A DNA stretch of 64,000 nt from Phycisphaeraceae bacterium D3-23 (lineage in GTDB: Bacteria > Planctomycetota > Phycisphaerae > Phycisphaerales > Phycisphaeraceae), in assembly GCA_039555135.1 (NCBI GenBank), contig CP114179.1, positions 3,224,001 through 3,288,000 on the forward strand. The letters are read 5' to 3'. The position numbers were made by a program, and so were the translations under genes. Shown here piece by piece: positions 53,473 through 55,218 of this stretch. Within the stretch, counting starts at the first letter, position 1. The number at the start of each line of letters is the position of its first letter. Under the pieces are notes generated by a model that ran no database searches, had not been told where the DNA came from, and saw only the letters and a program-made list of their open reading frames with translations.

Positions 53473-53949
53473 ATGGCTCATCCACGACCCGTATCGGCCC
53501 GCGCATTTTCACTCATCGAGATCATCATTGTCGTTTCAATCCTCGCGATCCTCGCAGCGATGGTCATCCCGAGGTTTGCCAACAGCAAAGACCAGGCGGC
53601 CGAGTCGGCGCTGATGACGAGTGTCAACAGCGTCAACACGAAGCTGACCGATGTGTTCGCGTCGAGCGGGGATTGGCCGACGACGATCGAATCGTCGTGG
53701 TTTATCGGCGGCGAGCCCAACCACATGCAGAATGTGTTCGGTGTGCCGATGATCGAGATCGTCGATACCGATGGCCTGACGCACCCCGCCAACAAGACGC
53801 TGAAGGCCGGTGTCGGCGGGGCGTATTGGTACAACTCGGCGACGGGCGTGTTCCGCGCGAGGATCTCGGACCAGGGGAGCGAGGCCGCGACGCTGGCGCA
53901 GTACAACAAGGTGAACAACGCTGAGGAATCTTCGCTGGGTAACTACTAA
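53473..53949 (+). CDS. Type IV pilin-like / pseudopilin protein
   Basis: A 158-residue protein. The leader MAHPRPVSARA is followed by FSLIEIIIVVSILAILAAMV, a class III prepilin helix with Glu5. The short C-terminal domain (GVGGAYWYNSATGVFRARIS) resembles GspG/PilE-like minor pilins found in planctomycetes. AGGGG is placed ahead of ATG 53473. It has no operon partner apart from the selenoprotein-like gene 78 bases downstream. Confidence 0.85.
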   Translation: MAHPRPVSARAFSLIEIIIVVSILAILAAMVIPRFANSKDQAAESALMTSVNSVNTKLTDVFASSGDWPTTIESSWFIGGEPNHMQNVFGVPMIEIVDTDGLTHPANKTLKAGVGGAYWYNSATGVFRARISDQGSEAATLAQYNKVNNAEESSLGNY

Positions 53950-54027: not shown

Positions 54028-55218
54028 ATGACGATTGCCTTCGCTTTAGCCCGGCCATTCAGCGCTTTGATGGCCATTCTGCTGGTGTCCTGCTCGGTGT
54101 GTTGGCAGGCGTCGGCGTTTGCGGGTGAGCTGACGCAGGCGCGTTTCGAGGTGCTGCTGGATGAGCTGACACCGGCGGCGGATGAGCCGTGGCGGACGGT
54201 GCCCTGGCAGGTGTCGGTGCTGGCCGCGCAGCGGATCGCCGTGGAGGAAGGCAAGCCGATCTTTATCTGGGCGATGGACGGGCACCCGCTGGGGTGTGTG
54301 TGAAACAACGGCGTGTTCGACCGTGCGTCGACCTTTGCCGACCCCGAGATTGTTGAGATGCTGCAGACCGAGTTTGTCCCGGTCGCGATCGACCAGGCGT
54401 ACCAGCGTCGCCAGCAAGACGCGGAGGGCGCGTTCTACCGCCGGATCGCGTCGCAGGGTCCACGCAATGATTTCGCCAACGGCACGAGCCAGGGCTTCTA
54501 CATTGCGCAGGCCGACGGCACGATGCTGCTGTTCAACAACAACCGAAACCCCGAGCGTCTGCGTCGGCTGATGCGTGAGGCGTTGACGCGGCACCGCGCG
54601 GCGGACGAGATCGAGGCCGATCCACTCGAAGACGGCGAGCCGGACGAGCGGTTCAACCCGTCGCCGCCCGAGGGCGGGCTGGTCGTGCGTGTGCGTGCGA
54701 AGGTGATGGATGGCTACGCCCCGAGCGACGACGGGGTCAAGACGATGTTCCAGAACGCGTTGTCGCGGGACAACCTGTGGGTCTCGGGTGACGAGCACGA
54801 AGCGTTGGTGCGGGGTGAGGTGCCGCAGTCGTTGGTGATGCGGTTGGCCCGGTTCCATCTGGTTGACAACACGCGGGGCGAGCCGCCGATGTGGCGAGAG
54901 GGTGAAGTCCTTGAGGCCGAGCTGATGCTGAGCGAGGGTGTGTTGCGGGGCTCGGTCGAGCTCGAAACCGCTGATGGTGAGCGTGGATATGCCGCCGAGC
55001 TGTTGGGGCGTGTCACGGTCGATGACGGCGCGGTGGTCGGGCTGGAGCTGGTCGCGCTGGGAACGTTCCACGGCGAAGGCCGGTATACCCGCGGCGCACC
55101 TGAGGGTGATTTCACCCTGGCCGTCGCGTTTACACTCGCGGACGGCGGCGATGTCGCGGACGCCATCCCGCCGCAGGGATCGCGCGGGTGGGTGCGGGGC
55201 TACATGGAGCTGCGTTGA
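54028..55218 (+). CDS. Probable selenoprotein: thioredoxin-like exported protein with in-frame UGA
   Basis: The frame from ATG 54028 is open except for TGA at 54301-54303 and continues to 55218, giving 396 residues if UGA is read as selenocysteine at position 92. The start has a signal sequence or anchor (ALMAILLVSCSVCWQASAFA). The thioredoxin-like core runs RIAVEEGKPIFIWAMDGHPL, then G-C90-V-Sec92, then NNGVFDRASTFADPEIVEML. The UGA thus falls in the redox motif (C-x-U), where a Cys would be expected in relatives. Codon usage and homology theme continue unbroken after it. A second domain (residues about 210-396) is unknown. The alternative is a nonsense mutation. Confidence 0.65.
54310..54340 (+). 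promoter_or_regulatory. Candidate bacterial SECIS hairpin
   Basis: Directly after the UGA, GGC (54310-54312) and GCC (54337-54339) close a hairpin whose upper stem is TCGAC (54317-54321) and GTCGA (54327-54331) with the loop CGTGC (54322-54326). The loop begins 18 bases after the UGA and contains a G-U step, within the spacing known for bacterial SECIS elements. Short stems like this occur by chance in GC-rich DNA. Confidence 0.45.

Follow-up and report, generated by a model that had tools for sequence, protein, structure and literature searches.

The question raised by this locus is whether a TGA codon within a long reading frame terminates translation or is read as selenocysteine (Sec). The window analysed here, a stretch of 64,000 nucleotides, corresponds to C1:3224001-3288000 of a genome that consists of a single contig of 4,619,879 bases. 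The gene and the codon concerned are as follows.

54028 to 55218, plus strand: candidate selenoprotein gene of 396 residues when translated with TGA as U, with the UGA predicted to be read as Sec at residue 92 and the stop TGA at 55216
54301 to 54303, plus strand: UGA codon for the predicted selenocysteine 92, shared at this column by 183 of 192 distinct homologues

Translation bore out the coordinates of the original prediction: the frame runs for 396 codons from the ATG at 54028 to the stop TGA at 55216-55218, interrupted only by codon 92, a TGA at 54301-54303. The predicted position of the UGA, two residues past Cys90 in the motif GHPLGCV-U-NNG, was also found in the translation. Local GC content is approximately 0.65, and a frame of 341 codons is likewise open on the opposite strand. 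Given that GC-rich DNA yields long open frames by chance, frame openness by itself is weak evidence, and we rejected it as proof of a selenoprotein. A UGA and a hairpin in one sequence are likewise at chance level; it is the comparative data, with UGA in 183 of 192 genes and a hairpin kept relative to recoded sequences, that lift the case above chance. On these data, we consider it very likely that the UGA at 54301 is read as selenocysteine in the gene at 54028-55218.

A homologue from the same genus shares 62% identity across query residues 21-393 and likewise contains one UGA. Downstream of the UGA, 190 of 302 residues are identical between the two proteins, and changes at the third codon position (135) dominate over those at the other two positions (71 and 69). 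Upstream of the UGA, changes in 60 codons are distributed as 16, 16 and 18 over the three positions, with no third-position excess. The latter result would fit a true stop, with either a broken gene or two genes and re-initiation at the GTG at 54313, the downstream part then being a remnant or a separate product; a 301-codon open reading frame does begin at this GTG, 9 nt past the UGA. Such a stop is difficult to reconcile with the pattern of change downstream of the UGA or with the occurrence of UGA at the same column in 183 of 192 distinct genes, and it would split a predicted thioredoxin fold within the active site. We therefore regard it as highly improbable.

Reading of the UGA as Sec would require the corresponding machinery, and the original prediction had proposed a search of the genome for selA, selB, the selC tRNA and selD. 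All four were present, with selB, selA and the tRNA-Sec gene adjoining. The genome search yielded a SelA match of 450.3 bits. At one locus (L021), selB (TIGR00475, 361.5 bits) and selA (TIGR00474, 522.5 bits) share a 4-base overlap and are followed by tRNA-Sec, which was the only one of 15 matches above the Rfam cut-off (65.3 bits) and was also called by ARAGORN, with the anticodon tca. Upstream of selB and selA lies a transporter whose binding protein scores above the cut-off for TIGR04553 (putative selenate ABC transporter). The selD gene (L022, C1:3621249-3622178; 360.8 bits, above cut-off) is located directly upstream of the putative selenate ABC transporter and has an in-frame TGA of its own, read as CGG-U-AGK, so that selD itself would be a selenoprotein gene. 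Given this TGA together with the Sec machinery, decoding of UGA as Sec very probably extends to a second gene of this organism, selD.

Among 151 relatives searched, 8 genomes yielded 11 matches in total. In each of the 7 strongest, a single in-frame TGA is present and aligns with U92; the remaining 4 have no TGA. The 7 TGA-bearing homologues (alignment A1) served as a profile for 392 genomes of the phylum, of which 155 had a match at E <= 0.001 with at most 4 candidates scored per genome. Among the 107 matches listed at E <= 1e-60, a single TGA is the only stop in 101, a TAG accompanies the TGA in 2, and 4 are free of stops. In addition, a DNA motif pattern that accepted TGA, TGC or TGT was run over the genome contigs of 84,980 species and found at least 118 stretches, with at least 117 TGA sites and at least 2 TGC sites; one of the TGC sites (L130, genome G513) falls outside the family set. 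That set was assembled from the profile and pattern searches by removal of exact repeats and of rows with no letter at the column, leaving 192 distinct genes from 185 loci.

The residue at the U92 column of these 192 genes is specified by UGA in 183, and is Ser in 6 and Cys, Asp or Pro in 1 each. An in-frame UGA at one conserved column, our test for a bacterial selenoprotein, is thus found in 183 of 192 genes, and the alignment of homologues proposed with the original prediction favours Sec. For the genes kept under profile-found loci, in whose detection the codon played no part, the count was 82 of 90, a figure that probably understates the share of UGA because non-UGA matches were fetched by preference. 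Judged by record title, the 101 UGA genes under contig-pattern loci fall in Planctomycetota (54), Verrucomicrobiota (18), Armatimonadota (9), Latescibacterota (3), Fidelibacterota (2) and four other phyla with 1 each, one of them archaeal, and 11 are unplaced; binning errors may account for the lone records from unexpected phyla. As judged from these sequences, the gene belongs to a large family, mainly of Planctomycetes, Verrucomicrobia and Armatimonadetes, that has UGA at the predicted active site almost exclusively.

Around the UGA, the 183 UGA members have T (149), V (27), C (6) or G (1) immediately before U, and Pro at -2 in 1 case. A Cys at -2, giving CxU, is present in 170 of the 183 and absent from 13, and Gly occupies +3 in 179. 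In an alignment of 63 members (A2), the invariant columns are W60, G85, P87, U92, R99, G164, D280, G284, G327 and G349, with the invariance of U92 being a result of selection, given that all A2 members were picked with UGA. Three loci (L214, L127, which is probably on the same contig as L108, and L227) contain more than one family copy or family-like part, that is, tandem duplications.

The original prediction had placed a hairpin with its loop 18 bases after the UGA, at the spacing of a bacterial SECIS element (bSECIS). RNA folding confirmed this arrangement in the window, with the following elements.

54309 to 54340, plus strand: predicted bSECIS hairpin, with a lower stem of 54309-54313 paired to 54336-54340 in the minimum free energy (MFE) fold
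54317 to 54321 paired to 54327 to 54331, plus strand: predicted bSECIS upper stem in the MFE fold, kept relative to synonymous recoding and showing covariation
54322 to 54326, plus strand: predicted bSECIS apical loop, CGUGC, separated from the UGA by 18 nt

The folding energy of this hairpin was -13 kcal/mol. When the 50 nt starting at the UGA were dinucleotide-shuffled 200 times, 39 of the shuffled sequences folded equally well or better (z -0.86), and we rejected the folding energy of a single sequence as proof of a SECIS element. The energy in the window being nonsignificant on its own, we applied a family-wide test in which the real sequences of 181 of the 183 UGA genes were compared with random synonymous recodings, with positions numbered so that the UGA is 1-3. 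The stem from 17-31 to 21-27 had a mean pair probability of 0.33-0.35, compared with 0.02 in the recodings, and a second register around 25-31 had one of 0.24, compared with 0.03. A hairpin with the loop and spacing of a bSECIS, regardless of stem length and energy, was found in 148 of the 181 genes versus 84 expected from the recodings. This loop-and-spacing test was also passed by 5 of the 9 non-UGA genes, and by itself was therefore rejected as weak. Mean folding energy was -14.0 kcal/mol, compared with -11.4 to -11.9 kcal/mol in control stretches, and its mean z relative to synonymous recoding (-0.57) exceeded that of the controls (-0.12 to -0.34) just modestly, so that we did not adopt this general measure as evidence for a SECIS element.

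Base-pair covariation differed between subgroups defined by the residue at +11. In the subgroup with Phe at this position, to which the window gene belongs (n = 78), positions 18 and 30 form a standard pair in 77 of 78 genes versus 39.2 expected for independent columns (CG 45, GC 26, TA 5), and positions 17 and 31 do so in 73 versus 55.9 expected (TA 47, CG 22). Two-sided compensatory changes within this subgroup thus map to 54318-54330 and 54317-54331 of the window. In the SVW-like subgroup with Trp at +11 (n = 91 of 181), the stem of the second register showed almost no covariation past invariance, the exception being the pair 26-30 (57 versus 47.3), and the first-register stem showed a weak excess that was largest for the pair 18-30 (54 versus 41.9). 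The remaining 12 genes have neither Phe nor Trp at +11.

Codon choice in and beside the loop was also unusual. The Arg codon at +7, which lies in the loop, is CGC in 6% and CGU in 40% of 177 genes, compared with 44% and 12%, respectively, at Arg codons elsewhere in these genes. Codon +8 ends in G in 93%, where 44% would be expected. C21 and G27 occur together in 159 of the 183 UGA genes, as against 2 of the 9 non-UGA genes. These comparisons indicate that the hairpin is kept beyond the demands of the protein.

DNA alone does not reveal the meaning of a codon, and a UGA might also be decoded as a residue other than Sec, by insertion of Trp or by general readthrough. The gene itself ends with TGA, however, the genome encodes the full Sec machinery, and a hairpin of bSECIS geometry is kept relative to synonymous recoding. 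Furthermore, none of the 9 non-UGA letters is Trp, and the replacement by Cys occurs in a genome without a SelA match. A decoding of this type therefore seems to us barely credible in comparison with Sec insertion.

The Cys form in question (L157, TGC, 274 bits to the profile) is from a metagenome-assembled genome titled uncultured Schlesneria and is the sole Cys form in the set, so that the Sec/Cys pair sought at the UGA column is provided by this gene alone. No SelA match was found in this draft genome, whereas the other 9 genomes of the same search had SelA matches; those in one of the nine (G517, L156) were weak, with a best E of 2.3e-9, and may represent other enzymes. Another of the nine, G513, is the genome of L130, the TGC gene outside the family. 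Two of the Ser forms (L055-L060), namely L056 and L058, are from genomes without a SelA match (G318 and G243). The genomes of the other four have SelA, and two of these (G256 and G315) also contain a UGA copy, which suggests that the Ser forms there are duplicated, perhaps non-redox paralogues. The Asp form is in a genome (G306) with both SelA and a UGA copy.

SelA was detected in 93 of 101 family genomes versus 153 of 291 others (Fisher p = 4.8e-14, for related and hence non-independent genomes). A UGA member and SelA were also found together on the complete chromosomes of Planctomycetes bacterium Pla163 (CP036290) and K23_9 (CP036526). The 8 family genomes counted as SelA negative comprise G229 (a match without the column), G243 and G318 (Ser), G431 (Pro), and the four genomes G416, G309, G356 and G402. 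The first of these four, with a UGA form, has a SelA match of just E 2.9e-16. No SelA match was found in G309, G356 or G402, which have UGA forms and completeness values of 84, 67 and 91%, respectively, and the absence may perhaps be attributable to incomplete or mixed assemblies.

To describe the protein, we combined sequence analysis with an AF2 model, which had a pLDDT of 94.1 and a pTM of 0.89. Three regions were distinguished.

54028 to 54120, plus strand: N-terminal hydrophobic segment, a probable export signal on the basis of the hydrophobicity of the window protein
54178 to 54615, plus strand: predicted thioredoxin-fold domain, residues 51-196, from the AF2 model and a structural match to 3f9u
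54673 to 55143, plus strand: predicted C-terminal antiparallel beta domain, residues 216-372, from an AF2 model of residues 205-396 alone

A crude Kyte-Doolittle test detected a 12-residue hydrophobic stretch at the N-terminus of 143 of the 171 UGA members that could be tested, and the family proteins are thus probably exported. Residues 51-196 of the predicted model matched 3f9u with a Z of 14.1 (rmsd of 2.1 over 114 aligned residues). This region also has its fold in common with proteins of the Thioredoxin_7 and Thioredox_DsbH (PF13899, PF03190), DsbD-gamma and AGR/ERp18 types, with Z scores of 12.8 for AGR3 (3ph9), 12.4 for 1sen and 11.2 for DsbH (2ju5). The window protein differs from the Thioredoxin_7 and DsbH folds in that it lacks their CxxC, having CxU followed by UNNG, and in that it has an extra C-terminal beta domain. 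In the AF2 model, Sec92 directly precedes a helix at 93-100. Profile alignments placed Sec92 opposite the first Cys and Gly95 opposite the second Cys of WCxPC in two generic thioredoxin-like proteins (L016 and L017), a pairing that is favoured by the presence of C in place of U in the profile.

Neither a Foldseek search with the whole model (best E of 0.045) nor one with the C-terminal beta domain gave a match at E <= 0.001, and a sequence search of the PDB gave nothing significant (best E of 0.19). The C-terminal domain was modelled alone with a pLDDT of 95.5. Its best VIA match was to OmpA (Z 5.9), which may reflect merely a common barrel-like arrangement, and comparison with Pfam gave nothing convincing (best E of 0.036, in 1 of 63 members). 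Weak structural matches of this kind do not establish a new fold.

The original prediction did not know this family as a described one, and the curated resources are consistent with that position: no model of Pfam or NCBIfam (June 2026 release) reached its cut-off on the window protein. Among 63 members scanned, the VPGUxxT model of NCBIfam matched 5, with a best E of 0.0013, and Thioredoxin_7 (PF13899) of Pfam matched 8, with a best E of 0.00054; these were the lowest E values in the two databases. For the window protein itself, the Pfam scan at E <= 0.01 gave no Thioredoxin_7 or DsbH match, and its score for PF03190 (15.3 of 27 bits) was below the Pfam cut-off. Identification as a DsbH or VPGUxxT protein was rejected because the scores were below the model cut-offs (15.3 of 27 and 16.4 of 275 bits, respectively).

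The VPGUxxT family (NF041383/NF041382; OS_HP5 in Table 1 of PMC13188914) is likewise a thioredoxin-like selenoprotein; of 149 genomes from the window's phylum, 13 have matches above its cut-off, several of which contain an in-frame TGA. If the window protein were a divergent member, there would be no new family, and the weak similarity in the thioredoxin part (E of 0.0056 for the window protein; 5 of 63 members matching, with a best E of 0.0013) might be read in this way. The match to NF041383, however, covers only positions 4-68 of 287, at 16.4 bits against a cut-off of 275, and leaves the C-terminal domain unmatched. The motif is GHPLGC[TV]U, and the test for VPG before Sec found GCV before U in the window protein. 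In addition, the same genome holds a separate VPGUxxT homologue. Membership of this family is accordingly very unlikely in our view. In the separate homologue (L244, C1:4525718-4526571), VPG is followed by an in-frame TGA, another TGA occurs farther downstream, and the coding sequence is distributed across three reading frames, as in a decayed gene or one with assembly errors.

We also compared the window protein with published catalogues. Table 1 of PMC13188914, a 2026 catalogue said to cover 119 families and subfamilies, has no entry with the motif GHPLGC[TV]U, the nearest entries being VPGUxxT and other thioredoxin-like proteins. One of these, the thioredoxin-like selenoprotein Sec.1 (PF13192), shares the CxU motif according to its table entry; PF13192 was not among the Pfam matches of the 63 members at E <= 0.01, which suggests that the two families are distinct. 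A literature search by title and abstract start found no paper describing the family, and the motif strings matched one plant paper. According to PMC12013277, all of the new selenoprotein families of that study have Cys-containing homologues, an illustration of how a family dominated by Sec could escape notice. The family is apparently unnamed, and priority is not certain.

As a clue to function, the genomic neighbourhood gave no neighbour family shared by more than 9 loci among 729 neighbouring open reading frames, counts that are limited to a flank of approximately 1.5 kb for most profile-found loci. The informative neighbours were the sel genes: in four loci (L114, L122, L186 and L205), the strand opposite the family gene carries selD and selA at a distance of about 0.2-3.3 kb, and three of these loci also have selB, 3.8-4.7 kb away; in L173, selD is 1.9 kb from the family gene. 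The same four loci encode, beside selA, proteins of 715-717 amino acids that match SelD over approximately 270-300 residues and resemble fusions of SelD with a second enzyme. In eight loci of one subgroup (L042, L045, L046, L050, L076, L079, L083 and L085), a long uncharacterized open reading frame (238-503 amino acids) is located upstream on the same strand and either ends where the family gene could first start or extends past that point by as much as 34 nt, an arrangement like that of a translationally coupled pair; one example has a proline-rich stretch. In the window, a pseudopilin-like protein is encoded at 53473-53949 on the plus strand, 78 nt upstream of the candidate selenoprotein gene, with a score of 22.6 bits for PF07963 (prokaryotic N-terminal methylation motif; cut-off of 21.2).

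Taken together, the Sec machinery, the UGA column (183 of 192) and the conservation and covariation of the hairpin support the original prediction of a likely selenoprotein. On the basis of the machinery and the element seen in the sequence, a ribosome that meets the UGA at codon 92 would be served by SelB with GTP and Sec-tRNA(Sec), bound to the hairpin whose loop begins 18 nt downstream, and Sec would be inserted in place of termination. Sec92, just ahead of the first active-site helix, would take the place of the nucleophilic Cys of CxxC in thioredoxin-like proteins. Cys90 of CxU, rather than the Gly site at +3, would likely be the resolving thiol and form a selenenylsulfide. An extracytoplasmic thiol or selenol oxidoreductase or a peroxide-reducing enzyme appears most likely, with the C-terminal beta domain possibly choosing the substrate or partner. 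We put the chances of a redox role with Cys90 as the resolving residue at about even.

If this reading is correct, a large family is added to the bacterial selenoproteome, in phyla whose selenoproteins have seemingly been little catalogued. Automatic annotation probably ends members of the family early at the UGA, and searches seeded with Cys homologues would tend to miss it because only one Cys homologue was found. The preponderance of 183 UGA forms over 1 Cys form, together with Ser in 6 of the 9 non-UGA forms, is the basis for a further, tentative proposal, to which we give rather less credence than to its negation: the family would be exported and selenium obligate, with loss of function on replacement of Sec by Cys, would combine a CxU site with a C-terminal domain of new fold, and would be a leading reason for the retention of the Sec system in many Planctomycetota, Verrucomicrobiota and Armatimonadota. 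The Ser forms may be inactive or altered in function. Both the reason for near-exceptionless Sec in a thioredoxin-fold protein and the question of what maintains the Sec trait in Planctomycetota, Verrucomicrobiota and Armatimonadota are now testable.
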